Source of the DNA: Sphaerotilus sulfidivorans
Lineage (GTDB): Bacteria > Pseudomonadota > Gammaproteobacteria > Burkholderiales > Burkholderiaceae_C
Reading direction: 5' to 3'
DNA: 64,000 nt
NCBI RefSeq assembly: GCF_013426975.1
Contig: NZ_JACCPY010000003.1
Coordinates: forward strand, 124,001-188,000
In this document: piece after piece, positions 34,776-48,080 of the stretch
Position numbering within the stretch: the first letter of the stretch is position 1
How the letters are laid out: each line of letters starts with the position of its first letter
The notes under the pieces: model-generated
Databases searched by the model: none
Told to the model about the DNA's origin: nothing
Seen by the model: only the letters and a program-made list of their open reading frames with translations
Program-made: the position numbers and the translations under genes

Positions 34776-35597
34776 ATGTTCCTCTCCTCGCGTCATCCTG
34801 TGCTCGCCTCGGCGGTGCTGGCCATCGCGCTGGCGGCGCTGTCGGCGGTGGCCGGCACCACCGTGGCCGACCTGTTCGAGGGCGATCCCTACCAGTCGCA
34901 TCCCTGGCCGGACATGCGCCGCGAGTTCCTTGGCCGCGATGCGCGCACCGTCTTCGACGAGCGGGTGCAGGTCAAGGGCCCGGCCTTCGCCGAGGATCCG
35001 ATGAACGTGCCGATCACCGTGTCGGTGCGCGACCTGCCCGGCATCGAGCGCATCGTCGTGCTGGTCGACCGCAACCCGATCCGCAAGGTGCTCGAGTACC
35101 AGCCGGTCAGCGCGCTGCCCAGCGTGTCCTTCCGCTTCAAGCTCGAGCAGGCCAGCCCGGTGCGCGCCGCGGTGCGCACCGCCGACGGCGTCTGGCACAT
35201 CGGCGGCACCTGGGTCGACTCGGCCGGCGGCGGCTGCACCGTACCCGGCAGCACCCGCAAGGACGGCAGCTGGTCGCAGACGCTCGGCCTGGTCAGCGGC
35301 CGGGTCTTCGAGGCCACGCCGGTGCCCGGCACCGAGGAGATCGCCACCGGCAGCCGGCTGCGGCTGAAGATCATGCACCCGATGGACACCGGCCTGGTCG
35401 GCGGCATTCCGGCCTTCTATGTCAACCGGCTGAGCGTGCGCGACAGCGGCGACCGCGAACTGCTGCGCCTGCAGACCTACGAGCCGGTCAGCGAGAACCC
35501 GGTGTTCTCGTTCGACTTTCCCTCGAAGCCGGCCGGCACGCTGCGCATCGTCGGCACCGACAACAACGGCAACCGCATCGATGCGCGGCTGGAGTGA
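34776..35597 (+). CDS. Quinoprotein dehydrogenase-associated SoxYZ-like carrier
   Basis: 273 residues with signal peptide (ASAVLAIALAALSAVAG). The N-terminal half is SoxY-like and contains the single Cys in AGGGCTVPGS; the C-terminal half is SoxZ-like (RLRLKIMHPMDTGLVGGIPAFYVNRLSV, FSFDFPSKPAGTLRIVGTDNNGN). This SoxY-SoxZ fusion occurs with PQQ-dependent alcohol dehydrogenases (the quinoprotein relay group). A PQQ dehydrogenase of the right family is encoded 11 kb downstream. The exact reaction of the relay is not known. Confidence 0.88.
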   Translation: MFLSSRHPVLASAVLAIALAALSAVAGTTVADLFEGDPYQSHPWPDMRREFLGRDARTVFDERVQVKGPAFAEDPMNVPITVSVRDLPGIERIVVLVDRNPIRKVLEYQPVSALPSVSFRFKLEQASPVRAAVRTADGVWHIGGTWVDSAGGGCTVPGSTRKDGSWSQTLGLVSGRVFEATPVPGTEEIATGSRLRLKIMHPMDTGLVGGIPAFYVNRLSVRDSGDRELLRLQTYEPVSENPVFSFDFPSKPAGTLRIVGTDNNGNRIDARLE

Positions 35598-35607
35598 GGA
35601 GAGCGCG

Positions 35608-36657
35608 ATGCCTGAGCTGTTTTCTGCCCTGCGCCCTGCTCTGCGGCCGGTCCTGCTGGGCGTGGCGGCGCTGCTGACCACCGCCACGCCGCCGGTCGCG
35701 GCACAGGCGCCGGCACCCGCACCTCGTGTCGATGTCGCCCGGCTCGACTACGGCCTGCAGGCGCGCTCGCTGGCCGACGGCGTCTGGGTGGTCGAGGGCG
35801 CCAACGACGACTTCTCGGTCGCCAATGGCTGCAACATCATCAATCTCGGCCTGATCGCCACCGCCGAGGGCACGGTGGTGGTCAACACCGGCACCAGCCG
35901 GCTGCACGGCCAGCAGCTGCGCGCGCTGGCCGAGCGCACCACCGGCCAGCGCGTCGCGCGGGTCGTTCACCTGAACCTGCATCCGGACTACTTTCTCGGC
36001 AACCAGGCCTTCGCCGACGTGCCACGCCTGGCCACGCCGGTCACGCGCGCCGGCATCGCCCGCGAGGCCTCGGCCTACGAGACCAATCTGTACCGGCTGT
36101 GCGGCGACTGGATGCGCGGCACCGAGACCCTGGCGCCGGATGCCGACCTGGCGGTGCCGACAGGCGGCCTCGGCGCGCTCACGGTCGGTGGGCGCACCTT
36201 CGACCTGATCGAGCTGGGCGGTCACACCGACTCGGATCTGGTGCTGATCGACCGGGCCAGCGGCGTGGCCTTCGTCGGCGGGCTGGTGTTCGTGCAGCGG
36301 GTGCCGACGACGCCGCATGCCCGGGTCGAGCGCTGGCTCCAGAGCCTGGACCGGCTGCAGACGCTGGGGCTGCGCACGCTGGTGCCCAGCCATGGCCCGG
36401 TGCAGATCGGCCCCGAGCGCGCGGCCGAGGGCATCGCGCAGACCCGGCGCTTCCTGCAGTGGATCGACCGCAGCTTCAGCGCCTGGGCGGCGCAGGGCTG
36501 GGACATGAACGAGGTGCTGCGTGCACCGGTGCCCGAGGAATTCCGCCAGTGGGCCGCCTTCCGCACCGAGTACGTGCGCAATGTCGCGCACCTCTACCCG
36601 ATCTACGAGCAGAAGGTGCTGAATCAGGCCCGGTCTCAGGCGCGCGGCCTGCGGTAG
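35608..36657 (+). CDS. Quinoprotein-relay metallo-beta-lactamase-fold hydrolase
   Basis: 349 residues with a signal peptide. MBL-fold stretches are present: GLIATAEGTVVVNTGTS, VHLNLHPDYFLGNQAF and LIELGGHTDSDLVLID, ending in TLVPSHGPVQ. The usual HxHxDH metal motif reads NLHPDY here, so one His ligand is replaced by Asn and the last His by Tyr; metal binding or hydrolysis may differ. It lies 10 bases after the SoxYZ-like gene with a GAGGAG ribosome site, so it belongs to the same operon. Its 3' end overlaps the convergent regulator gene by 22 bases. Confidence 0.85.
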   Translation: MPELFSALRPALRPVLLGVAALLTTATPPVAAQAPAPAPRVDVARLDYGLQARSLADGVWVVEGANDDFSVANGCNIINLGLIATAEGTVVVNTGTSRLHGQQLRALAERTTGQRVARVVHLNLHPDYFLGNQAFADVPRLATPVTRAGIAREASAYETNLYRLCGDWMRGTETLAPDADLAVPTGGLGALTVGGRTFDLIELGGHTDSDLVLIDRASGVAFVGGLVFVQRVPTTPHARVERWLQSLDRLQTLGLRTLVPSHGPVQIGPERAAEGIAQTRRFLQWIDRSFSAWAAQGWDMNEVLRAPVPEEFRQWAAFRTEYVRNVAHLYPIYEQKVLNQARSQARGLR

Positions 36658-37745
36658 TGCCACCAGGGCAGCGCGCGGGTCAGCGACAGCACCTCGCCGA
36701 TGCGCTCGGCCGCGTGATAGCCGGGCAGACGCTCGAGCTGCTCGCGCCAGCGCGGCCCCTGCAGCACCTGGCCCAGGCGCTGCACCGCCGGGTGGTCGAG
36801 CGTTTCCTTCAGGCCGACCAGAAAATAGTCCTCCTCGACCAGCGGCACGAAGTCCAGCCCGAAGGCCTGCGCCGCAGCCTCGATGCCGAGACCCGCATCG
36901 CCCTGGCCCGAGGCCACCGCGGCGGCCACCGCCAGATGGCTGTCCTCCGCGCCCTCGTTCCAGCCGGCGAGCGTGGCCGCATCCAGCCCGGCGCGCTCCA
37001 GCAGGTGATCGGCCAGCAGCCGGGTCGCCGATCCCGGCTGGCGGTTCACATAGCGCAGGTCCCGGCCGGCCAGATCGCTCAGCTCGCGCACGCCGCGCGG
37101 GTTGCCGGGCGCGACCATCAGGCCCTGCATCCGGCGCGTGCAGCCGATCAGCTTGTGACGGCCGGGCTTGAGCAGCGGCTTGAGCGCCTGCGAGAACAGC
37201 GGCACCGCCTGACCGAGCGCCGGCACATGAAAGCCGGCGACCTGGCAGCGTCCCTCGGCCAGCGAGCGCAGCGCGTCCAGGCTGCCGGAGAACTTCAGCT
37301 CGATGTGCAGCCGCTCGTCCTGGCTGGCCAGCTCGCGCAGCCGCGCCAGCGCGAGGTCGTGGCTGGCATGAATGGTCAGCACCTGCTGGGTGCCGTCGAA
37401 GGCGTCGGCCAGCACATGCTCGAGTTCGGCGCGCAGCGCCTCGATGTGCGGGGTCAGCCGGGTGCGGGCCTGGCGCTCGGCCCACAGCAGTCGGTCGGCG
37501 AAGGGCGTCAGCCGCGCCGGCTGGCCCTGGGCCCAGGTGACCAGCGGCTCGCCCAGCGCCTCCTCCCACTGTTTCAGCGCGCCCCAGACATGACGGTAGG
37601 AGGCGCCCAGCGAGCGTGCCGCATGCTGGATCGAGCCGCACTCGTGCACCGCGCTGAGCAGATCGAACAGCGGATTGCCGATGTCGGCGCCGCGCTGGTC
37701 CGGCGGGCCGAAGGTGTACTGGAGATGGATGCCGCGGGTCTTCAT
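36636..37745 (-). CDS. ModE-like winged-helix regulator with periplasmic-binding-protein-like sensor domain
   Basis: 369 residues. The N-terminal winged helix (FDLLSAVHECGSIQHAARSLGASYRHVWGALKQWEE, positions about 27-62) is of the LysR/ModE type. The rest is a substrate-binding-protein-like fold (LTIHASHDLALARLREL, HKLIGCTRRMQGLMVAPGNPRG, VNRQPGSATRLL, LAVAAAVASGQGDAGLGIE). This architecture is shared by regulators of molybdate and tungstate genes. It is the last gene of the aor run, 40 bases after the 100-aa gene, and I infer that it senses tungstate, molybdate or the aldehyde status and controls the aor and tup genes. Confidence 0.85.
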   Translation of the reverse strand: MKTRGIHLQYTFGPPDQRGADIGNPLFDLLSAVHECGSIQHAARSLGASYRHVWGALKQWEEALGEPLVTWAQGQPARLTPFADRLLWAERQARTRLTPHIEALRAELEHVLADAFDGTQQVLTIHASHDLALARLRELASQDERLHIELKFSGSLDALRSLAEGRCQVAGFHVPALGQAVPLFSQALKPLLKPGRHKLIGCTRRMQGLMVAPGNPRGVRELSDLAGRDLRYVNRQPGSATRLLADHLLERAGLDAATLAGWNEGAEDSHLAVAAAVASGQGDAGLGIEAAAQAFGLDFVPLVEEDYFLVGLKETLDHPAVQRLGQVLQGPRWREQLERLPGYHAAERIGEVLSLTRALPWWHYRRPRA

Positions 37746-37785
37746 GGGCCGCGACGATAGCGGAAAGCGCGACGCGCTCCGCGTC

Positions 37786-38088
37786 TCAGCCGCCGCCGCG
37801 CTGCATCCAGAGATCGAAGCGACGCATGAAGCGCTGGCGCTCGCAGGCCTCGACGTCCGCGTCGAAGCGGAAGTCCACCGCCAGGCGGGGCAGGCTGATC
37901 AGCGCGATGCGGCGTGGCTCGAGCGCACGCCAGAGAATCGTCAGACCACCCGAGCCGATGGGCTCGATGCGCGCCTGGCCGGACTGCAGCGCCAGCGCGC
38001 GGCCGTCGACCGCGCCGGGCAGCCAGCCCAGCCACTCGGCCTCGGTGCAGCCCTGCTCGCGCGAGAAGGTGGCGGGAACGTCGTTCAT
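37786..38088 (-). CDS. Small uncharacterised protein of the aor operon
   Basis: 100 residues, soluble, with no known family that I recognise. Key stretches are WLGWLPGAVDGRALALQSGQARIEPIGSG and a C-terminal DVEACERQRFMRRFDLWMQ. It lies between the MoaD-like gene (28 bases) and the regulator (40 bases), in one direction with AorABC. The position suggests a maturation or assembly factor for the tungsten enzyme, which is inference only. Confidence 0.75.
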   Translation of the reverse strand: MNDVPATFSREQGCTEAEWLGWLPGAVDGRALALQSGQARIEPIGSGGLTILWRALEPRRIALISLPRLAVDFRFDADVEACERQRFMRRFDLWMQRGGG

Positions 38089-38116
38089 CCGGGACCGGGC
38101 TGCAGCATCGGCCGCG

Positions 38117-38371
38117 TCAGCCACCGGCGATCGGCGGCCAGATCGCCAGCGCGTCGCCGTCGGCCAGCACGCGCGCGGCGCGCTGGTCGGCCGCGACATA
38201 GCTGCCGTTGACCAGCACCAGATGCACCAGCGCGGGCGGCAGCTGGAAGCGGTCGATGACCGCAGCCACCGTCGAGCCGTCCGGCACCTCCAGATCGACG
38301 GCATTGCCCGGCGGGCGGTCGGCCGGCAGGTGCTCGGCCAGCATCGCGAACAGCTTGAAGGTGATCCTCAT
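38117..38371 (-). CDS. MoaD/ThiS-like sulfur-carrier protein
   Basis: 84 residues with the beta-grasp start MRITFKLFAMLAEHLP and the terminal diglycine (WPPIAGG) that is adenylated and thiocarboxylated in MoaD. NGSYVAADQRAARVLADGDALAIWPP is the usual final portion. It begins 19 bases after aorC and probably provides dithiolene sulfur for the pyranopterin of AorB, a dedicated copy rather than the housekeeping MoaD; no moaE lies beside it. Confidence 0.9.
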   Translation of the reverse strand: MRITFKLFAMLAEHLPADRPPGNAVDLEVPDGSTVAAVIDRFQLPPALVHLVLVNGSYVAADQRAARVLADGDALAIWPPIAGG

Positions 38372-38390
38372 GCCAGCATCATGCCCTGCA

Positions 38391-39719
38391 TCACGCCTTG
38401 GCGCGAACCCATCCGAAGTCGCCCTGGGCCTGCGCACAGGCCAGATAAGCCTCCATCAGCAGCGTCGGATCCTCGAGCAGCCGGTCCTTCCAGTCGCCCA
38501 GACGGACCTGCCCCTCGACCAGGCCGCGCATCACGCCGACATGCTCGGTCCAGCCGATCGAGTTGCAGCCGACCAGGATGTCACCGTCGAACTGCAGGCT
38601 CAGGTGCCGACCTTCGTCGCGGTCGGTCAGCTCCACATGCTGGCCGCCGGGCACGCCGTCCCACTTGCCGAAGGACGCCGAGATCATGCCCAGCGTGTCG
38701 AGCACGTTGATCTGCGTGACGCCCTTGAGCGTGGCGTCGCGCCCGATCATGTTCATCGCGGCCACGCGCGCCTGCTCGGCCGCGTTGGGCTGGATCGCGC
38801 TGACGATGGTCCGGCCGCTGACCTTGTCGAAGGCCTCGGCGCAGTCGCCTGCGGCGTAGATGCCCTCGACATTGGTCTGCAGCCGCTCGTCGGTCAGCAC
38901 GCCGACCAGGCAGGTGATGCCGGAGTTCTCGAGAAAGCCGATGTTCGGGCGCACGCCGGTGGCGCTGATGACCAGGTCGGCGGGCAGATGCTCGCCGCTC
39001 GACAGGCGCACCGTCATCGGCGTGGCCGGCACATGGTCCTCGATGCCGCCGGCCTCGGCCAGGCGGTCCATCAGGTCCGGCGCGCGGCGCTCGATCGCCT
39101 CGACGCGGGTGCTGGTGAACACCCGCACGCCCTTCTTCTCGCACCACTCGCGGATCATGGTGCCGGCGGTCGGCCCCATCATGCGCGGCACCATCCGGTC
39201 GCCCATCTCGACCACGGTCAGCTCGACGCCGCGCTGCTGCAGCGCCTCCATGATGATGCAGCCGATGAAGCCGGCGCCCATCTGGATGACCTTGGCGCCC
39301 GGGCGCGCCAGCGCGGCGATCGCGCGGGCGTCCTTCAGCGTCCAGCACGGATGCACGCCGCGGCCGTGAATGCCGGGAATCGGCGGCGAGGCCGGCGACG
39401 AGCCGGTGGCAATCAGCAGCCGGTCGAAGGCCAGCGTACTGCCGTCGTCGAGCTCGACGCTGCGCGCCTGCACGTCGACGCGCTTGGCGCGACCGCGACG
39501 CAGCGAGATGCCCTGCCGCTCGTAGTGGCCCTCGCCGTGGCGCAGGTGCGTGCCCTCCTCGCCGACCTTGCCGATCAGCAGGTAGGGAATCGCCATGCGC
39601 GAGTACGGCGCCTCCGGCTCGTCGCCGATGACGATGACCTCGTCATGCGGCGCGTGCTTTCGGATCGTCTCGGCCGCGATGACGCCGGACGGACCGGCCC
39701 CCAGGATCACGTGCCTCAT
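38391..39719 (-). CDS. aorC: FAD/NAD(P)-dependent subunit of aldehyde oxidoreductase (AorC-like)
   Basis: 442 residues, disulfide-reductase-like flavoprotein without the redox CxxC pair. FAD motif HVILGAGPSGVIAAETI at the N-terminus, NAD motif VIQMGAGFIGCIIMEAL in the middle, and GIYAAGDCAEAFDK contacting the flavin. It lies 19 bases after aorB. In the tungsten AOR of Aromatoleum the third subunit is such a flavoprotein and lets the enzyme use NAD as electron acceptor; the size matches that subunit. Confidence 0.88.
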   Translation of the reverse strand: MRHVILGAGPSGVIAAETIRKHAPHDEVIVIGDEPEAPYSRMAIPYLLIGKVGEEGTHLRHGEGHYERQGISLRRGRAKRVDVQARSVELDDGSTLAFDRLLIATGSSPASPPIPGIHGRGVHPCWTLKDARAIAALARPGAKVIQMGAGFIGCIIMEALQQRGVELTVVEMGDRMVPRMMGPTAGTMIREWCEKKGVRVFTSTRVEAIERRAPDLMDRLAEAGGIEDHVPATPMTVRLSSGEHLPADLVISATGVRPNIGFLENSGITCLVGVLTDERLQTNVEGIYAAGDCAEAFDKVSGRTIVSAIQPNAAEQARVAAMNMIGRDATLKGVTQINVLDTLGMISASFGKWDGVPGGQHVELTDRDEGRHLSLQFDGDILVGCNSIGWTEHVGVMRGLVEGQVRLGDWKDRLLEDPTLLMEAYLACAQAQGDFGWVRAKA

Positions 39720-39738
39720 CGTGTTGTGCCTCTTGTGC

Positions 39739-41586
39739 TCAGAGACCCAGGCGCTCGCGCGTCTCGGGCTTCAGGCGGCCTTCGGTGTCCCAGCCACGGA
39801 TCTCGTAGTACTTGGGCAGCATTTCCGGCAGCTTGTTGACCAGGCCCTTGGCCGGACCGGTCTGCGCAGGCTCTTCCAGCAGGCGCTTGGGCAGCGTGTC
39901 GTCCTTGGCGGTGAAGCCGGCGCGGTTGTTGAAGTCGCGCTCCATGTTCCAGATCCGCTCGCCGATCTGGTTCAGGTTCTCGAGCGTGAACTCCTCGCCG
40001 CAGGCGGCGGCCACCTGCGGCTGCACGTCGGCCAGCGTCCAGGCGAAGCTGGTGAAGATGCAGATGCCGGCGGCGTCGAAGGCGGCGGTCGCGTCCTGGA
40101 AGGCCATGACCAGTTCCGGCTTGCCGTCGGCGGTCAGCGGATCGGTCTTGACCGGAATGCCCAGCACTTCGGAGGCGATGGTGTAGGAGCGCAGGTGGCA
40201 GGCACCGCGGTTCGAGGTCGCGTAGGTCAGGCCCATGCCCTGCACGCCGCGCGAGTCGTAGGCCGGGAATTCCTGGCCCTTGACGCTCATCGACAGCTCC
40301 GGGTGGCCGTACTTCCTGCACAGGCGGGCCGAGCCCTGGCCGATCTCGACGCCGAAGCCCTCGCCCCGGGCGGTGATCTCGGCGAAGTGGGCCAGCGCGC
40401 GTGCATCGCCGAACTTGGCGTCGATGCCCAGCTGCTCCTTCGTCAGCACGCCCATCTCGTAGAGCTCCATCACCGCGCCGATGGTCGCGCCGAAGGAGAT
40501 CGGGTCCATGCCCTGCTCGTTGCACAGCACGTTGGCGTACTGCAGCGCCTCCAGGTCGTTGACGCCGTTGGCCGCACCCAGCGCCCAGGCCGCCTCGTAC
40601 TCCAGGCCGCCCGAGGCGCCCCAGTACTTCGGCTTGTTCTCGACCGTGAAGTGGGTCTTGTCGATCTTGGAGATGCGGCCGCACGCGATGGTGCAGCCGA
40701 AGCAGGCCTGGTTGGTCACCAGGTGCTTCTTGCCGTCGGTCGCGCGCGGGGTGGCCATCGCCTCGGCGCCGATGTCCTTGGCGCCCTCGAACTGCACGTC
40801 GCGGTGGTTGCGGGTCGGCAGCGCGCCGATCTCGTTGATGACGCTCATCAGCACCTGGGTGCCGTAGGTCGGCAGGCCCGCGCCGGTGACGGCGTTGTCA
40901 TGCAGGATCTTCTTCTTCTCGAAGGTGACCTTCATGAACTCCTTGGGGTTGGCGATGTTGCCGACGCCCTTGGTGCCGCGCACCGCGACCGCCTTCAGGT
41001 TCTTCGAGCCCATCACCGCGCCCACGCCCGAGCGGCCGGCCGCGCGGTGCAGATCGTTGACGATGGCCGAGAACAGCACCTTGTTCTCGCCGGCCAGACC
41101 GATGGTGGAGATGCGCAGCAGCGGATCCTGATGCGACTTCTTCAGCGACTCCTCGGTCTCCCAGACGCTCTTGCCCCACAGGTGGGAGGCATCGCGCAGC
41201 TCGGCGACATCGTCGTTGATGTAGAGGTAGACCGGCCTGGCCGAGGCGCCTTCGACGATCACCATGTCCCAGCCGGCAGCCTTCAGCTCCGAGCCCCAGT
41301 AGCCGCCCGAGTTCGAGCAGGCGATGGCGCCGGTCAGCGGGCCCTTGGTGATGACGGTGTAGCGCCCGCCGGTGGAGGCCATGGTGCCGGTCAGCGGACC
41401 GGTGCACCAGATCATCTTGTTGTCGGGCGACAGCGGGTCGACGGTGGCATCCATCTCCTCGACCAGATACTTGGTGCCCAGGCCGCGCGAGCCCAGGTAC
41501 TGCCTGGCCCAGTCCATGCGCAGCGGTTCGCTGGCGACGGTGCCGTTCGTGAGGTTGACGCGGAGGATCTTTCCTGCCCAAGACAT
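39739..41586 (-). CDS. aorB: Tungsten-containing aldehyde ferredoxin oxidoreductase, catalytic subunit
   Basis: 615 residues, full length. The AOR family oxidises aldehydes to acids with a bis-pyranopterin tungsten cofactor and one 4Fe-4S cluster. The cluster ligands are C295-x2-C298-x3-C302 (ACFGCTIACGR) and Cys509 (GICIFTSF). The N-terminal MSWAGKILRVNLTNGTV and SRGLGTKYL, and GSKNLKAVAVRG, are highly typical, as is WALGAANGVNDLEAL. Neighbours AorA and AorC give the three-subunit form known from Aromatoleum, and a tungstate transporter lies beside it, so tungsten rather than molybdenum is likely. The physiological aldehyde is not known. Confidence 0.95.
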   Translation of the reverse strand: MSWAGKILRVNLTNGTVASEPLRMDWARQYLGSRGLGTKYLVEEMDATVDPLSPDNKMIWCTGPLTGTMASTGGRYTVITKGPLTGAIACSNSGGYWGSELKAAGWDMVIVEGASARPVYLYINDDVAELRDASHLWGKSVWETEESLKKSHQDPLLRISTIGLAGENKVLFSAIVNDLHRAAGRSGVGAVMGSKNLKAVAVRGTKGVGNIANPKEFMKVTFEKKKILHDNAVTGAGLPTYGTQVLMSVINEIGALPTRNHRDVQFEGAKDIGAEAMATPRATDGKKHLVTNQACFGCTIACGRISKIDKTHFTVENKPKYWGASGGLEYEAAWALGAANGVNDLEALQYANVLCNEQGMDPISFGATIGAVMELYEMGVLTKEQLGIDAKFGDARALAHFAEITARGEGFGVEIGQGSARLCRKYGHPELSMSVKGQEFPAYDSRGVQGMGLTYATSNRGACHLRSYTIASEVLGIPVKTDPLTADGKPELVMAFQDATAAFDAAGICIFTSFAWTLADVQPQVAAACGEEFTLENLNQIGERIWNMERDFNNRAGFTAKDDTLPKRLLEEPAQTGPAKGLVNKLPEMLPKYYEIRGWDTEGRLKPETRERLGL

Positions 41587-41631
41587 GTGTGTGCTCCTAG
41601 TGCCGGGTGAGGCGGATGTTTCTGGACAGGA

Positions 41632-42105
41632 TCAGGCGGAGGCCTGGTTGCCGAGCTTGTCGGCCCAGGCCTTCATCTTGTCGATGCCGGTCCAGTTCGC
41701 GTCGATGAAGGTGATGGCACCGGTCGGGCAGGCCTCGGCGCAGGCGGGCTCGCCGCCGCAGAGGTCGCACTTCTGGACCTTGCCGGTTTCCTGGACATAG
41801 TTGATGGTGCCGAAGGGGCAGGAAATCGTGCAGACCTTGCAGCCCACGCAGGTGGTCTCGGCGACGACCTTCGCGCCGGTGGTCTTGTCGATGGTGATCG
41901 CCTCCACCGGACAGGCGTGCAGGCACCAGGCCTCGTCGCACTGGGTGCAGGTGTAGGGCACCTTGCGGCCGGTCTCGTGGAAGTCGAAGACCTTGATGCG
42001 GGACTTCGCCGGCGCAAACACGCCGTAGTTCTCGTACGAGCAGGCCATCTCGCACTGCAGGCACCCTGTGCACTTGTCCGGGTTCAGGTGGAGGCTTTTC
42101 TGCAT
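41632..42105 (-). CDS. aorA: Four-cluster ferredoxin-like subunit of aldehyde oxidoreductase (AorA-like)
   Basis: 157 residues with sixteen cysteines arranged for four 4Fe-4S clusters: CTGCLQCEMAC, CTQCDEAWCLHACP, CVGCKVCTISCP and CDLCGGEPACAEACP. It resembles HycB/DmsB-type electron-transfer subunits. In three-subunit AORs this protein carries electrons between AorB and the flavin in AorC. It is the first gene of the operon; an inverted repeat lies 29-46 bases upstream of the start codon. Confidence 0.93.
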   Translation of the reverse strand: MQKSLHLNPDKCTGCLQCEMACSYENYGVFAPAKSRIKVFDFHETGRKVPYTCTQCDEAWCLHACPVEAITIDKTTGAKVVAETTCVGCKVCTISCPFGTINYVQETGKVQKCDLCGGEPACAEACPTGAITFIDANWTGIDKMKAWADKLGNQASA

Positions 42106-42133
42106 GGTCGGTTCTCCGTGATCGGCAGATGTC

Positions 42134-42151
42134 TATGCAATCATCTGCATA
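42134..42151. promoter_or_regulatory. Putative operator in front of the aor operon (TATGCA-N6-TGCATA)
   Basis: Perfect 6-base inverted repeat TATGCA-ATCATC-TGCATA, 29-46 bases before the aorA start codon. A second inverted repeat, GCAGATG with CATCTGC (42125-42148), overlaps it. A near copy lies in the tup/moeA divergent region at 44688-44705. The ModE-like/PBP regulator of the same locus is the natural candidate to bind here. Confidence 0.6.
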
Positions 42152-42169
42152 TCGACCGATGCGAGGAAC

Positions 42170-42185
42170 CTAGGCCTAACCCTAG
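42170..42185. promoter_or_regulatory. Second inverted repeat upstream of aorA
   Basis: CTAGG-CCTAAC-CCTAG, a 5-base inverted repeat with 6-base spacer that also contains the palindrome TAGGCCTA (42171-42178). It lies 19 bases upstream of the TATGCA repeat relative to aorA. Function unknown. Confidence 0.35.
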
Positions 42186-42266
42186 AAACCGAAGGGGAAC
42201 CGATCCGCCCCGCGGTTTTTTCGGGGGCGGGCTGATGTCCGAAGTTGCAAATGCTCCAGACTGAGA

Positions 42267-42288
42267 CAGGCCCCGGAGCCGGGGCCTG
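42267..42288 (-). terminator. Hairpin after tupA
   Basis: Strong GC stem CAGGCCCCG with CGGGGCCTG around a 4-base loop, six bases past the tupA stop codon in the direction of transcription. There is no T run behind it, so it may be a factor-dependent or weak terminator. Confidence 0.5.
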
Positions 42289-42294
42289 GCGCGC

Positions 42295-43170
42295 TCAGCG
42301 CGGCGCGTTCGGGAAGAAGAGCTGCTCGCCGCCGACCTTGTAGGACGCGATCGAAGCCTGTCCGGCCGGCGAGGTCACCCAGTCGGCGAAGGCCTGCGCG
42401 GCGGCCTGCTTGACATGTGGGTGCTTGGCCGGATTGACCACCATCACGCCGTACTGGTTGAACAGCGCCTTGTCGCCCTCGACCAGCACGGCCAGATCGG
42501 CGCGGTTCTTGAAGCTCAGCCAGGTGCCGCGGTCGGTGAAGACATAGGCACCGGTGGAGGCGGCCATGTTCAGCGCCGGACCCATGCCGCAGCCGCATTC
42601 CTTGTAGCCGGAGGGCTTGGTCGCGCCGGGCGCGGCCAGATCACTGCCGGCCTGGCGCCACAGGCGCAGCTCGGCCGCGTGCGTGCCGCTCTTGTCGCCG
42701 CGCGAGATGAAGGCGGCGCCGGAGGCGCCCACCTTGCGCAGCGCCTCGGCGATGGTCGCGCCCTTGACCCTGGCCGGATCGGCGGCCGGGCCGACCAGCA
42801 CGAAGTCGTTGTACATGACCGGCACGCGCTTGAGTCCCCAGCCCTCGGCGACGAACTTCTCCTCGGCCACCTGGTCGTGCACGAAGACGACGTCGGCGTC
42901 ACCGCGGCGCGCCATGTCCAGCGCCTGGCCGGTGCCGACGGCCACGACACGCACCTCGATGCCGCTGGCGGCCTTGAAGCTCGGCAGCAGATGCGCGAAC
43001 AGGCCCGACTGCTCGGTCGAGGTGGTCGAGGCCATGACGATCGACTTCGCCGCGTCCTGCGCGGCCGCGAGGCCCGGCAGCACCGCGGCCACGCACAGCA
43101 CCACGGCCGCCACCAGGCGGCGGCGCAGCGGCTTCATGCTCGGGCTCGGGTTGGAATTCAGGGGGTCCAT
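42295..43170 (-). CDS. tupA: Tungstate ABC transporter substrate-binding protein
   Basis: 291 residues with a signal peptide (VAAVVLCVAAVLPGLAAAQ). The oxyanion-binding signature of TupA, TTSTEQSGLF, is present in ASTTSTEQSGLFAHLLPSF. VVFVHDQVAEEKFVAEGWG, YNDFVLVGP and FISRGDKSGTHAAELRLW are also typical of the TupA/WtpA-like group, not of ModA. The ATG at 43170 has AAGGAGAG upstream. The gene overlaps tupC by 13 bases. It supplies periplasmic tungstate capture for the adjacent tungsten enzyme. Confidence 0.92.
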   Translation of the reverse strand: MDPLNSNPSPSMKPLRRRLVAAVVLCVAAVLPGLAAAQDAAKSIVMASTTSTEQSGLFAHLLPSFKAASGIEVRVVAVGTGQALDMARRGDADVVFVHDQVAEEKFVAEGWGLKRVPVMYNDFVLVGPAADPARVKGATIAEALRKVGASGAAFISRGDKSGTHAAELRLWRQAGSDLAAPGATKPSGYKECGCGMGPALNMAASTGAYVFTDRGTWLSFKNRADLAVLVEGDKALFNQYGVMVVNPAKHPHVKQAAAQAFADWVTSPAGQASIASYKVGGEQLFFPNAPR

Positions 43171-43904
43171 GGCAACTCTCCTTTGAGGAACTGGACGGCT
43201 TCGGGCGGCAGCGGGTCGTCGGCCGGCGCCTCGAAGAAACGGCCGGTCGGCCGGTCGGCGACCAGGCGGCCGCCTTCGAGATAGAGCACCCGGGTGGCCA
43301 GGCGCTTGACCTGGCCGAGGTTGTGCGTGCTCATCACCAGCGTCAGGCCGGCCTGGGCGAACTCGGCGATCAGCGCCTCGACCTCGCGCCGGGCGCTGGG
43401 GTCGAGGCTGGCGGTGGGCTCGTCGAGAAAGAGGATGTCGGGCTGCAGCGCCCAGGCCCGTGCCAGCGCCAGCCGCTGCTGCTGGCCGCCCGAGAGCGCA
43501 CGCGCCGGCCGGTCGGCGCAGGACTGCAGGCCGACCCGCGCCAGCGCATCGAGCGCGCGTGCGCGCCGCTCGTCGCGCGGCACCCGCCCGAGCCACAGCG
43601 CCAGCATCAGGTTGCGCCAGACCGACAGGTGCAGCAGGAAGGGCCGCTGGAACAGCATCGCCGCGCGCGGCAGCCGGTCGTCGGCGGGCAGGCGATGCAG
43701 CTCGCGGCGGCCGCGCGCCGGCAGGATCAGCCCGTGCAGCAGCCGCAGCAGCGTCGTCTTGCCCGAGCCGTTGGCGCCGACCAGCGCGATGCGCTCGCCG
43801 CGGTGGATCTGCAGGTCGAGCGGCTGCAGCGCCTGCTGCGCGCCGAAATGCACCTGCGCGCCCTCGAGCGACAGCAGCAGCGGTGCCGGTGGCAGCGTGG
43901 TCAT
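43158..43904 (-). CDS. tupC: Tungstate ABC transporter ATP-binding protein
   Basis: 248-residue ABC ATPase. Walker A GANGSGKTT, signature LSGGQQQR, Walker B ILFLDEP, and the H-loop STHNLG are all visible. No C-terminal TOBE/MOP domain like that of ModC is seen; the last 25 residues are short and end in LKGELPWTP. It overlaps tupB by 4 bases (ATGA) and tupA by 13 bases, so the three are tightly coupled. Confidence 0.92.
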   Translation of the reverse strand: MTTLPPAPLLLSLEGAQVHFGAQQALQPLDLQIHRGERIALVGANGSGKTTLLRLLHGLILPARGRRELHRLPADDRLPRAAMLFQRPFLLHLSVWRNLMLALWLGRVPRDERRARALDALARVGLQSCADRPARALSGGQQQRLALARAWALQPDILFLDEPTASLDPSARREVEALIAEFAQAGLTLVMSTHNLGQVKRLATRVLYLEGGRLVADRPTGRFFEAPADDPLPPEAVQFLKGELPWTP

Positions 43905-44632
43905 GCCCAGGCCTCCTGAGTGCCGCGGCCGGCGCCCGCCTCGGCTGCGCGCCAGCGCACCAGCGCGATCAGCAGATGCAGGCTGCCGACCACGCCCAGC
44001 AGCACCAGGCCCAGCGCCAGCGCCAGCGGCAGATCGCCCTTGCTGGTCTCCAGCGCGATGGCGGTGGTCATCACCCGGGTCGAGCCGGCGATGTTGCCGC
44101 CGACGATCATCACCGCGCCGACCTCGGCCACCGCCCGGCCGAAGGCGGTCAGCAGGATGGTCAGCGCCGCCACCCGCTGGTTCAGCAGCAGCAGCGCGGC
44201 CGATGTCATCGGCCCGGCCCCGAGCGAGGCGAGCTGGTCGCCGCCTTCCTGCAGGCCTTCGCTGACCAGGCGGTGCGTCAGCGCGGCGATCAGCGGCACC
44301 ACCAGGATGCTCTGCGCGATCACCATCGCGGTCGGCGTGAACAGCAGGCCGAACGCGCCCAGCGGCCCGGAGCGCGACAGCAGCAGGTAGACCGCCAGAC
44401 CCACCACCACCGAGGGCAGCGCCAGCAGCGTGTTGAGCAGCCCCAGCACCGCGCCCCGGCCGGGAAAGCAGGCCACCGCCAGCCAGGCGCCCAGCAGCCC
44501 GCCGGCCAGCGCGCCCAGCAGACAGGCGCTGGCGCTCACCCGCAGCGACAGCGCGACGATGTCGAGAAGCACGGGGTCGAGCGAGGAAATCAGGCGCCAG
44601 GCCAGGCTCAGGCTGTCGGAGAAGGTGTTCAT
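43901..44632 (-). CDS. tupB: Tungstate ABC transporter permease
   Basis: 243-residue inner-membrane permease with about five to six helices and the EAA-loop region HRLVSEGLQEGGDQLASLGAGP. AEVGAVMIVGGNIAGSTRVMTTAIALETSKGDLPLALALG is the typical conserved portion of TupB-type permeases. It is the first gene of the tup operon; the operator-like repeat lies 56-73 bases upstream. Confidence 0.92.
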   Translation of the reverse strand: MNTFSDSLSLAWRLISSLDPVLLDIVALSLRVSASACLLGALAGGLLGAWLAVACFPGRGAVLGLLNTLLALPSVVVGLAVYLLLSRSGPLGAFGLLFTPTAMVIAQSILVVPLIAALTHRLVSEGLQEGGDQLASLGAGPMTSAALLLLNQRVAALTILLTAFGRAVAEVGAVMIVGGNIAGSTRVMTTAIALETSKGDLPLALALGLVLLGVVGSLHLLIALVRWRAAEAGAGRGTQEAWA

Positions 44633-44687
44633 CGGGCGGCGGCATCGGAACGGACGCGATTCTTGCCGCAGCGCCCGCCGCTGACCA

Positions 44688-44705
44688 TATGTCGCCGACT
44701 GCATA
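44688..44705. promoter_or_regulatory. Putative operator in the tup/moeA divergent promoter (TATGTC-N6-TGCATA)
   Basis: TATGTC-GCCGAC-TGCATA. One arm is identical to the aor repeat and the other keeps four of six bases, with the same 6-base spacer. It lies between the divergent tupB and moeA genes and could control both. Confidence 0.5.
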
Positions 44706-44788
44706 GCCGGCGCGGGCGGGCATCGCCCTATCATCGGCCGATCGATCCTCTGACCGGCGTGCGCCTGCCCGGCCGCGCCCCACCGACC

Positions 44789-46063
44789 ATGCCCGAACTC
44801 GGCCCCTCCCCCCTGATGACCGGCGGCGACTCGCTCGACGTCGCCGCTGCCCGTGCCGCCATCGCCGCGGCGATCCGCCCGATCGACGGCCGCGAGACGC
44901 TGCCGCTGCGCCAGGCGCTCGGCCGCGTGCTGGCCGAGGACGTGATCTCGCCGATCGACGTGCCGGCCCATGACAATTCGGCGATGGACGGCTATGCCTT
45001 CGCCGGCAGCGCGCTGGCCGACGGCGCCGAGACGGTGCTGCGGGTGGCCGCCACCGTGCATGCCGGCGATGTGCCGACGATGACGACCGCGCCCGGCGAC
45101 TGCGTGCGCATCATGACCGGCGCGGTGATGCCGCCGGGCCTCGACACCGTGGTGCCGCAGGAGCTGTGCCGGCTGGAAGGCGGCCGCATCCGCATCGCGC
45201 CCGGCACGCTGCGCGCCGGCGACAACCGCCGCCTGCGCGGCGAGGACCTGAGCCGCGGCCGCCCGGCGGTGGCCGCCGGGCGGCGCCTGCGCCCGGCCGA
45301 CCTGGGCCTGATCGCCTCGCTGGGCATCGCCGAGGTCGCGGTGGTGCGCCGGCTGCGGGTGGCGCTGTTCTCGACCGGCAACGAGCTGCGCACGCTCGGC
45401 CAGACGCTGGACGCCGGCTGCATCTACGACAGCAACCGCTACAGCCTGATGGGCGCGCTCGAGCGTCTGGATGTCGAGGTGATCGATCTCGGGCTGGTGC
45501 GCGACGACCCCGAAGCCCTGGCGGCCACGCTGGACGAGGCCATCGCGCGTGCCGACGTGGTGCTGACCAGCGGCGGCGTCAGCGTCGGCGACGCCGACTT
45601 CACCAAGGACCTGCTGGCCCGCCGTGGCGAGATCGCGTTCTGGAAGGTCGCGATGCGGCCCGGGCGGCCCTTCGCCTTCGGGCCGCTGCGCCGCGCCGAG
45701 CAGGCCGATGCGGCCTGGCTGTTCGCGCTGCCGGGCAATCCGGTGGCCGCGCTGGTGACCTTCTACGCCTTCGTGCGCGACGCGCTGCTGACGCTGGGCG
45801 GCGCCACGCCGCAGCCGCTGCCGGTGCTGCGCGCGCGCTGCACGACGCCCGTGCGCAAGCGCCCGGGCCGCACCGAGTTCCAGCGCGGCATCGTCTCGCC
45901 CGGCGCGGACGGCCGCTGGGAAGTGCGCCTGACCGGCACCCAGGGCGCCGGCGTGCTGCGCAGCATGAGCGAGGCCAACGCGCTGGTGGTGCTCGGCCAT
46001 GCGCAGGGCTCGGTGGCCGCCGGCGACGAGGTCGAGGTCTGGCTGTTCGACGGTCTGGTCTGA
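44789..46063 (+). CDS. moeA: Molybdopterin molybdenum/tungsten insertase (MoeA family)
   Basis: 424 residues, full-length MoeA. Typical stretches are [93 protein letters not shown] and [14 protein letters not shown]. MoeA inserts the metal into adenylated molybdopterin. Its position, divergent from the tungstate transporter and next to the aor genes, suggests a copy used for tungsten, as proposed for second MoeA paralogues in tungsten users; whether this genome has another MoeA cannot be told here. Confidence 0.93.
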
Positions 46064-46076
46064 GCGGAGTCCGAGA

Positions 46077-46097
46077 CGGGGCCCTCAGGCGGCCCCG
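46077..46097 (+). terminator. Hairpin after moeA
   Basis: Stem CGGGGCC and GGCCCCG with a 7-base loop, starting 13 bases after the moeA stop. No T run follows. Confidence 0.4.
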
Positions 46098-46156
46098 CGG
46101 CGTACCGTGACACGGATGTGCGAGGCTGGAACAGCCCTCCGCATTTACCCTGGATC

Positions 46157-46183
46157 GGGAAGCGTTCCCGAGGCCCGGGAAGC
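46157..46183. promoter_or_regulatory. Palindromic upstream site plus half-site (possible activator site)
   Basis: CGGGAAGCGTTCCCGA at 46156-46171 contains the palindrome GGGAA-N3-TTCCC. A half-site CGGGAAGC follows at 46176-46183. The palindrome is centred about 124 bases upstream of the start site predicted from the sigma-54 promoter, the usual range for enhancer-type activators. Confidence 0.5.
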
Positions 46184-46260
46184 ATCAAAAGCGACCGCAA
46201 GGGCGGCTGCACGCGGGCTGGAGCTAGTAGGTTCCCCAGGGTTCGCCGGTCTTCTGCCAG

Positions 46261-46275
46261 TGGCACATTTGTTGC
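46261..46275 (+). promoter_or_regulatory. Sigma-54 (RpoN)-type promoter of the PQQ dehydrogenase gene
   Basis: TGGCAC-ATTTG-TTGC matches the -24/-12 consensus TGGCAC-N5-TTGC in every core position, with the invariant GG at 46262-46263 and GC at 46274-46275 at the right spacing. The predicted start is near 46287, leaving a leader of about 57 bases. Confidence 0.65.
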
Positions 46276-46277
46276 CC

Positions 46278-46290
46278 GGGAAACGTTCCC
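46278..46290. promoter_or_regulatory. Second copy of the palindrome, over the predicted start site
   Basis: GGGAAACGTTCCC, flanked as CGGGAAACGTTCCCGA, differs from the upstream copy at one base in 16. It would overlap the start of transcription from the sigma-54 promoter, a position suited to repression or looping. Confidence 0.5.
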
Positions 46291-46343
46291 GAACGGCACC
46301 CTCGCCGTTCCGTGACACAGCCACCTCTCCGAGGAGACCGACC

Positions 46344-48080
46344 ATGCAGAAGAAACTTCTGAGCCTGCTGGTGTGCGCCGGACTTTCGTCCATCGCCCAC
46401 GCCACCGTGACCGACAAGATGATCGAGAACGACGCCGCGACCCCCGGCGACGTGCTCAGCTGGGGCATCGGCCAGGAAGGCCAGCGCTATTCCCCGCTGA
46501 AGAAGATCAACACCAGCACCGTGTCCAAGCTGGTGCCGGCCTGGTCCTTCTCCTTCGGCGGCGAGAAGCAGCGCGGCCAGCAGAGCCAGCCGCTGATCCA
46601 CAACGGCAAGATGTTCGTGACGGGTTCGTACTCGCGCATCTTCGCGCTGGACGCCAAGACCGGCGCCAAGCTGTGGAAGTACGAGCATCGCCTGCCCGAC
46701 GGCATCATGCCCTGCTGCGACGTGATCAACCGCGGCGCCGCCCTCTATGACAACCTGGTGATCTTCGCCACGCTGGACGCCCAGCTGGTCGCGCTGAACC
46801 AGGACACCGGCGAGGTGGTCTGGAAGGAGAAGATCGACAACTACGCCGACGGCTACTCCGCATCGGCCGCGCCGCTGATCGCCGAGGGCCTGCTGCTGAC
46901 CGGCGTGTCGGGCGGCGAGTTCGGCATCGTCGGCCGCGTCGAGGCGCGCAACCCGAAGACCGGCGAGCTGGTCTGGGTGCGCCCGACCGTCGAAGGCCAC
47001 ATGGGCTACAAGTTCGACAAGGACGGCAACAAGATCGAGAACGGCATTTCCGGCGAGCGCGGCAAGACCTGGCCGGGCGACCTGTGGAAGACCGGCGGCG
47101 CGGCCACCTGGCTGGGCGGCAGCTACAACAAGAAGACCGGTCTGGCCTACTTCGGCACCGGCAACCCGGCGCCGTGGAACAGCCACCTGCGCAAGGGCGA
47201 CAACCTGTACTCGACCTCGACCGTCGCGATCGATGTCAAGACCGGCCAGATCAAGTGGCACTACCAGAGCACTCCGAACGACGGCTGGGACTATGACGGC
47301 GTCAACGAGTTCGTGACCTACGAGGAAGGTGGCCAGGTGCTGGGCGGCAAGGCCGACCGCAACGGCTTCTTCTACGTCAACGACGCCAAGACCGGCAAGC
47401 TGGTCAACGCCTTCCCCTTCGTCAAGAAGATCACCTGGGCCACCGGCATCGACCTGAAGACCGGCCGCCCGAACTTCGTGCCGGAGAACCGCCCGGGCGA
47501 CCCGACCGCCTCGGCCGACGGCAAGAAGGGCGGCTCGGTGTTCACCGCCCCGTCCTTCCTGGGCGGCAAGAACCAGATGCCGATGGCGTACTCGCCGGAG
47601 ACCAAGCTGTTCTACGTGCCGGCCAACGAGTGGGGCATGGAGATCTGGAACGAGCCGATCACCTACAAGAAGGGTGCCGCCTACCTGGGCGCCGGCTTCA
47701 CCATCAAGACGCTGGGCGACGGCCCGATCGGCGCGCTGCGCGCGGTCGATCCGAAGTCCGGCAAGATCGTCTGGGAAGTGCCCAACAACGCCCCGCTGTG
47801 GGGTGGCGTGCTGACCACCGGCGGCAACCTGGTGTTCTGGGGCACGCCGGAAGGCTATCTGCAGGCCGCCGACGCCAAGACCGGCAAGGTGGTCTGGAAG
47901 TTCCAGACCGGCTCGGGCATCGTGGCGCCCCCGGTCACCTGGGAAGACAAGGGCGAGCAGTACATCGCCGTGGCTTCGGGCTGGGGCGGCGCCGTGCCGC
48001 TGTGGGGTGGCGACGTGGCCAAGAAGGTCAGCTTCCTCGAGCAGGGCGGCTCGGTCTGGGTGTTCAAGCTGGTCAAGTGA
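46344..48080 (+). CDS. PQQ-dependent alcohol dehydrogenase, lanthanide-type
   Basis: 578 residues with signal peptide, a quinoprotein propeller that oxidises alcohols in the periplasm. The adjacent Cys124-Cys125 (MPCCDV) form the ring disulfide beside PQQ. Metal and active-site residues are Glu192 (SGGEFGI), Asn274 (GTGNPAPWN), catalytic Asp316 and Asp318 (WDYDGVNE). The Asp two residues after the catalytic Asp marks lanthanide-dependent enzymes (XoxF, PedH); calcium enzymes have Ala or Ser there. Tryptophan-docking repeats such as [11 protein letters not shown] recur. Start ATG 46344 has GAGGAG upstream. No cytochrome c gene adjoins it. A sigma-54-type promoter precedes it. XoxF versus PedH subclass cannot be settled here. 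Confidence 0.93.

Follow-up and report, generated by a model that had tools for sequence, protein, structure and literature searches.

A conserved inverted repeat upstream of aor and tup genes in Sphaerotilus sulfidivorans is a likely operator of a ModE/LysR-type regulator carrying a PBP_like domain

Introduction

The closest known system to the one described here, which uses a different DNA-binding domain, is TaoR (also TupR) of Desulfovibrio, which, as Rajeev et al. 2019 are said to have found, regulates a tungsten aldehyde oxidoreductase (AOR) together with tungstate uptake, reportedly activating aor and repressing tup when tungsten is plentiful. Helix-turn-helix (HTH) domains of the HTH_17 kind are excisionase-like, and the usual operator box of LysR-type regulators is T-N11-A. 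According to PMC11980592, TaoR has a PBP-like domain and HTH_17, and the molybdenum regulator ModE represses modABCD and activates moa; TaoR appears as tupR in PMC10102598. The ModE consensus is given in PMC545781 as ATCGNTATATA-N6-TATATANCGAT, with a core of TATATA-N6-TATATA. Here, we describe two inverted repeats, one in front of aorA and one in front of tupB, in a 64,000-nt stretch of DNA from Sphaerotilus sulfidivorans (contig NZ_JACCPY010000003.1, positions 124,001 to 188,000; hereafter, the window), and a candidate reader of these repeats encoded at 36636-37745 on the minus strand of the window.

No description of an operator or regulator for tungsten control in betaproteobacteria was found in the mainly open-access literature searched. 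The terms "regulator" and "promoter" were not found in the accessible text of PMC6365974, on the AOR of Aromatoleum; that of PMC13328260, on WOR classes, contains no "regulator" and one unrelated "promoter", and no ModE regulator was found in the available part of PMC5343134.

Results

The candidate operator upstream of aorA (O-aor; 42134-42151, minus strand) reads TATGCA-GATGAT-TGCATA towards the gene, i.e., a perfect TATGCA-N6-TGCATA repeat, and aorA starts 28 nt after it (ATG at 42105, minus strand). The second candidate (O-tup; 44688-44705, minus strand) reads TATGCA-GTCGGC-GACATA towards tupB and matches 10 of the 12 specified bases. It lies between the divergent tupB and moeA genes, 55 nt from the ATG of tupB (44632, minus strand) and 83 nt from that of moeA (44789, plus strand). 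Both repeats of the original prediction are therefore present, the first of them perfect, and both were followed in same-genus alignments, in which the arms of the tup site are kept while its spacer changes. A scan of the window allowing up to two mismatches returned two matches against 0.38 expected, and two or more were reached in 8 of 100 shuffles; on window statistics the pair is only mildly unusual and not convincing alone. At the same tolerance the whole genome (4.39 Mb) contained 17 places, including both window sites, and one of the 17 was perfect. The sole genomic copy with one mismatch (C79:206357) was considered as a third site and rejected, as it lies inside a tRNA-Cys gene. A looser pattern, TATGHA-N6-TDCATA with one mismatch, gave three places elsewhere in the genome (C3:23058, C47:81694, and C97:12052); among mechanical open reading frames (ORFs), no clear gene start was found behind C3:23058 or C47:81694. 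The earlier finding of no third copy thus holds for good matches in the genome scan, but these three weaker places remain.

Judged by comparison with relatives, through conservation, de novo dyads and co-occurrence, the pair is far beyond chance. Searches with the regulator matched 114 of 399 genomes of the order (E≤1e-40) and, within the family, 163 of 399 (E≤1e-85); AorB had matches in 112 of 399 genomes. The best match reached at least 10 of 12 bases in 77 of 113 aorA and 91 of 95 tupB upstream regions; among shuffled regions, 2 of 565 for aorA and 2 of 475 for tupB did so. These counts are of loci, with some genomes counted twice, and the thresholds (at least 9 and at least 10 of 12) were fixed after the spread of scores had been seen. 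At the lower threshold, shuffled aorA regions reached at least 9 of 12 in 34 of 565 draws. The motif is therefore conserved in front of orthologous aor and tup genes, and the lack of conservation that would have told against it was not found. When all 5-mer dyads with spacers of 0-16 were enumerated de novo with the window's genus left out, TATGC-N8-GCATA ranked first in the tupB set (57 of 66). In the aorA set CTATG-N10-CATAG, which is the same site shifted by one base, came first (49 of 89) and TATGC-N8-GCATA reached 44; for comparison, the highest dyad counts obtained with 10 Markov sets were 14 and 11. Second in the aorA set was a different dyad, TCTCA-N3-TGAGA (46 of 89), which occurs ~85 nt before the aor operator in many relatives and does not occur in the window.

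A matrix compiled from 142 unique sites of other genera scored O-aor at 26.0 bits and O-tup at 15.7 bits, with the next place at 4.8. On 20 Markov windows, scored only at 18-mers with TA at the beginning or end, no place scored above 15.8, and the second-best place never exceeded 9.2. Because the sites in the matrix had been picked by a match of at least 9 of 12 to the window's consensus, its scores are not independent of that consensus; they support the operator but are not an independent test of it. The commonest form among the collected sites was TATGCA-N6-TTCATA, with a strict distal and a loose proximal arm, and the motif had the same orientation at both genes, pointing at the gene. Since it is asymmetric in most collected sites, the loose proximal arm at tup is the usual condition.

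Occurrence of the motif was linked to that of the regulator. The exact pattern TATGHA-N6-TGCATA was present in 133 of 163 regulator-positive genomes of the family vs 45 of 236 others (p=6e-37), whereas the reversed pattern, serving as control, showed no link (15 of 163 with and 16 of 236 without the regulator; p=0.24). The co-occurrence counts still include a separate full palindrome, TATGCAAC-(C/T)(A/G)-GTTGCATA, the exact pattern overlooks variants such as TAGGCA, and a genome was labeled regulator-negative if it had no match at E≤1e-85. On re-searching 11 such genomes at 1e-15, nine stayed negative, one (G429) yielded a homologue of 39% identity and one (G434) a fragment. At the aor promoters themselves, a site of at least 9 of 12 was found in 81 of 90 regulator-positive and 3 of 16 other upstream regions (p=1.3e-8), leaving 13 of the 16 without a site; the 106 regions derive from 112 aor-positive genomes, of which 107 were fetched and one had no aorA match.

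The operator also tended to be missing where the regulator was missing. In regulator-less genome G498 the best score was 7 of 12 at both aor and tup, and in G591 and G664, of the same genus, it was 10 of 12 at aor and 12 of 12 at tup. At the aor promoters of six regulator-less genomes (G690, G540, G421, G750, G498, and G460) the operator was gone (7 or 8 of 12), while TCTCA-N3-TGAGA was kept at 8 or more of 10 in all six and AGGGTT-NN-CCCT, likewise at 8 or more of 10, in the last four. Such promoters, from which the operator is missing and other aor dyads are kept, look like natural deletions. The best tup score was 7 in G498, G421, G750, and G540 and 9 in G460, all regulator-less, compared with 12 in G591 and G664 and 10 in G621, which are regulator-bearing relatives. 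Where the regulator gene was divergent from tupB (79 of 139 genomes), 76 of the 79 had a site of at least 10 of 12. In the window, the aor cluster ends with the regulator gene. Taken as a whole, the comparisons suggest that the motif is very probably the landing site of a regulator of the 36636-37745 type, and the proposal of a candidate operator of a regulon is supported by the conservation before aor and tup and by co-occurrence with the regulator; that the protein binds there and responds to a metal, we infer.

The original prediction had named the 36636-37745 protein as a ModE-like binder. Conservation, co-occurrence, co-loss and divergence from tupB mark it as the likely reader, but it is not a ModE. 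Its HTH scored 43.8 bits against ModE_repress (TIGR00637), below the cut-off of 98.5, and a closer ModE-type HTH (97.7 bits) is encoded elsewhere in the genome (G000:C91:3424-3672; L302). Pfam searches detected HTH_1 (1.1e-10) at the N-terminus, where the ModE/LysR-type HTH covers about residues 23-86, and PF12727 PBP_like (7.3e-55) at residues 137-329; at E≤0.001 there was no match to TOBE/mop, and LysR_substrate (PF03466) was not among the matches. HTH_17 was absent from a set of HTH matches that comprised only HTH_1 and sub-threshold ModE_repress and LysR-type models. The best solved-structure match of the HTH was 2ijl, a molybdenum-binding repressor (E=0.0016). An AlphaFold2 model (15 sequences; mean pLDDT 84.9, pTM 0.70) has a helix at residues 81-117, and the 50 Foldseek matches listed for it were LysR-type proteins, with TM of about 0.33-0.53; the model resembles full-length members of this type. 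The protein thus has the LysR-type layout of HTH_1, linker helix and periplasmic-binding-type fold. From its sequence, we conclude that the protein, rather than being a ModE, combines a ModE/LysR-type HTH with PBP_like, and its domain and gene context suggest that it may bind tungstate.

The locus shares features with three described systems. As in TaoR, the regulator combines an HTH with a PBP-like sensor and the operator stands before both aor and tup, regulation itself being predicted here from sequence; unlike TaoR, whose HTH is HTH_17, its HTH is of the ModE/LysR type. With Escherichia coli ModE it has in common an HTH family signal, a site in which 6 nt separate two 6-bp arms with outer TAT/ATA, and apparent control of an oxyanion ABC transporter, but it lacks a TOBE/mop match, its arms are TATGCA rather than TATATA, and the distal arm is strict and the proximal one loose. 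As in LysR-type regulators (BenM, CbnR, and OxyR structures), which the model matches as full-length proteins, HTH_1 is present, and the gene frequently runs divergently from its target, the operator lying between the two. Unlike in these, the effector domain is PF12727 instead of LysR_substrate, and the site is an even-length 18-bp dyad rather than T-N11-A.

Promoter-like hexamers were arranged differently around the two operators. At tup, 58% of 73 non-redundant sites are followed at 23 nt by a -10-like hexamer, and of the two offsets found in relatives this is the more frequent. The window has the same spacing, with AAGAAT (44659-44664, minus strand) as the putative -10 of tupB. TATCAT (44729-44734, plus strand), at a distance of 23 nt on the opposite side of O-tup, may serve moeA in the same way; a similar spacing was found only in the nearest relatives of the same-genus alignment. 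No good -35 was seen by eye at tup. Assuming the usual 17-nt promoter spacer, the center of the tup operator would fall upstream of -35, near -45 or -60. In 45% of 64 non-redundant aor sites, an AACAAT-like hexamer begins 9 nt ahead of the operator; as a predicted -10, this hexamer would put the operator of many relatives just behind it, i.e., on the transcription start.

On the minus strand the gene order is tupB, tupC, tupA, aorA, aorB, aorC, aorD, an aorE-like ORF and the regulator, with moeA divergent from tupB. The transporter genes encode a tungstate-type ABC permease (tupB, 43901-44632; NF041773 below its cut-off), an ABC ATPase (tupC, 43158-43904; assigned from position and sequence) and a substrate-binding protein (tupA, 42295-43170; NF041772 below its cut-off, start uncertain). 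Family scans identified a 4Fe-4S protein (aorA, 41632-42105), the AOR large subunit with AFOR_N and AFOR_C (aorB, 39739-41586), a pyridine-nucleotide oxidoreductase (aorC, 38391-39719), a ThiS/MoaD-like protein (aorD, 38117-38371) and, on the plus strand, the molybdopterin molybdotransferase MoeA (44789-46063). The small aorE-like ORF (37786-38088, minus strand) has no family match and occurs at the same place in several relatives; its start and that of aorD were chosen by us. The cluster is flanked by genes at 35581-36657 and 46341-48080, which we take to encode a metallo-beta-lactamase-fold protein and a PQQ-type alcohol dehydrogenase, respectively, and which stay nearby in close relatives. 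Among the matches listed, from which records of the genome itself were possibly left out, the nearest named relative was Sphaerotilus natans ATCC 13338 (99% identity in the regulator), and the named relatives were mostly Burkholderiales. A moeA1-mobB-tupBCA cluster is described in PMC13197769.

De novo enumeration and same-genus alignment revealed a second conserved element, CTAGGGTTAGGCCTAGG, upstream of O-aor (42169-42185, minus strand). The aor promoters of relatives (L112-L218) carry, ahead of the operator, a conserved dyad resembling CTAGGGTT-NN-CCCTAGG, which is also present at 42169-42185 in the window. Both this dyad and TCTCA-N3-TGAGA look like activator sites. The full palindrome noted above recurs in genomes with and without the regulator (L348, L349, and others) and is probably the site of another factor.

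Further members of the regulon were sought in 40 hand-picked stretches, mostly motif matches with no obvious aor, tup or regulator neighbor among the matches listed, together with same-genus loci. These held 41 sites: seven before aor, five before tup, three before formate dehydrogenase genes and two of the other palindrome class, and for 24 of the 41 no plausible gene could be assigned from mechanical ORFs. Pfam searches with ten nearby ORFs suggested two more candidates, a chemoreceptor (L340) and a sigma-54 activator (L330). One of the five tup sites is a perfect copy in G522 (L323:2980); it precedes a tupA that adjoins a copy of the regulator gene, besides the site before tupB elsewhere in that genome. 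An operator of at least 11 of 12 stood before an fdsG-type formate dehydrogenase gene at 3 of 16 loci (L325:1752, L324:1725, and L326:1721, in G534, G412, and G400, respectively), and these three genomes also have aor and tup sites. The 16 loci came from 13 of 79 genomes with a match; at four others the best score was 9 of 12, and the two fdsG-type genes scanned fell just below the cut-off of NF004638. The fdsG-like gene of the window's own genome has no operator (best score 6 of 12).

Discussion

We consider it likely that both repeats serve as operators in a single small regulon and that the 36636-37745 protein, with its ModE/LysR-type winged helix and PBP_like domain, reads them. The regulator, presumably a dimer, would bind TATGCA-N6-T(T/G)CATA, and tungstate may be its effector, as PBP_like is a kind of domain used for oxyanions. 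In this way, tungstate uptake by tupBCA would be tied to AOR, the tungsten enzyme; in the window's lineage, control perhaps extends across the operator to moeA. The regulator would further control its own gene, which is often divergent from tupB across the operator region and here lies within the aor cluster.

How the regulon is switched is a matter on which we are more tentative. There is close to an even chance, in our estimate from operator geometry, that the tungstate-free form binds, aiding RNA polymerase at tup and blocking aor at its start, and that tungstate releases it. With the metal present, the regulator would leave the DNA, aor would come on and uptake would fall. Opposite effects of one bound form could arise because the operator would lie upstream of -35 at tup and on the start at aor, and the tungstate-free binder is favored because this is the physiologically sensible assignment of the two effects. 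The fuller proposal, to be held a little more loosely, is a tungsten switch of inverted logic, in which the apo form on one asymmetric operator would activate uptake and block the start of the AOR operon by position alone, with formate dehydrogenase added in some genera.

Several observations weigh against this picture. Nine of 90 regulator-positive aor promoters have no site, and 30 of 163 regulator-positive genomes lack the exact pattern. Conversely, 3 of 16 aor promoters from regulator-less genomes have a site (G437, G550, and G552), from whose assemblies (74, 90, and 70% complete, respectively) the regulator may merely be absent. G434 and G550 keep 11 of 12 at tup with no intact regulator detected; in G434 the searches recovered no more of the regulator than a fragment containing an in-frame stop (L380:1501-1731), and this fragment and the persisting tup operator perhaps reflect a recent loss. 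The fetched pieces of 60 of 139 genomes do not show the regulator gene divergent from tupB. Among 91 tup sites, the hexamer lies only at 23 nt in 49, only at 38 nt in 24, at both in five and at neither in 13, and the start-site geometry is built on -10-like hexamers rather than mapped starts. Because AACAAT was not seen in the same-genus alignment for the window's own genus, where CTAGGGTTAGGCCTAGG or a variant stands upstream instead, the start-blocking step is weaker in the window than in relatives. Finally, the direction reported for TaoR is the opposite of that proposed for the apo form.

The same regulator and operator may instead follow the logic of ModE and TaoR, the tungstate-bound form repressing tup by hindering the -35 region and activating or tuning aor. 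Metal-bound ModE and TaoR are said to work in this manner, and the tup site of the 23-nt class borders on the -35 region, a place from which a repressor would act as well. On the other hand, the place of the aor operator in many relatives, just downstream of the conserved AACAAT, is one for blocking and not for activation, a tungsten enzyme repressed when tungsten is present makes little sense, and the 38-nt class of tup sites (24 of 91) lies far upstream for a simple repressor. We regard this reading as doubtful, albeit a serious contender.

Reading of the sites by the classical ModE of the genome, with the local regulator incidental, is strongly disfavored. A ModE-type HTH is indeed encoded on C91, and the ModE consensus, which had been described as having different arms, is less foreign than that: TATGCA does differ from TATATA, but the ModE core shares the 6-nt spacer with both window sites and agrees at 8 of 12 arm positions. 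However, among 36 regulator-positive genomes tested, ModE was missing (E≤1e-14) from 18, every one of which keeps an aor site of at least 9 of 12, while G498, G540, and G690, in which ModE and aor are present, have neither a detected regulator nor an aor site. These comparisons imply that ModE is not the usual reader. Less probable still is an RNA hairpin in the leader, acting as an attenuator or in riboswitch fashion. The arms can pair and the aor site is probably inside the 5′ leader, but the tup site lies upstream of its -10-like hexamer, the proximal arm TTCATA of most collected sites breaks the stem, the motif co-occurs with a DNA-binding protein, and an Rfam scan of 36000-46500 gave no family at its gathering score. 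Chance resemblance, for which the shuffles with two matches might speak, is refuted by the motif's conservation between genera, its recovery de novo and its link to the presence of the regulator, and we give it hardly any credence.

The likely operator and its regulator thus provide a concrete candidate pair for tungsten control in a large betaproteobacterial family. Since the regulator has a ModE/LysR-type HTH and TaoR has HTH_17, for the same aor/tup regulon, the finding suggests that a PBP_like sensor has been paired with more than one kind of DNA-binding domain. The motif can, in addition, point to further linked genes, such as formate dehydrogenase in three genomes.

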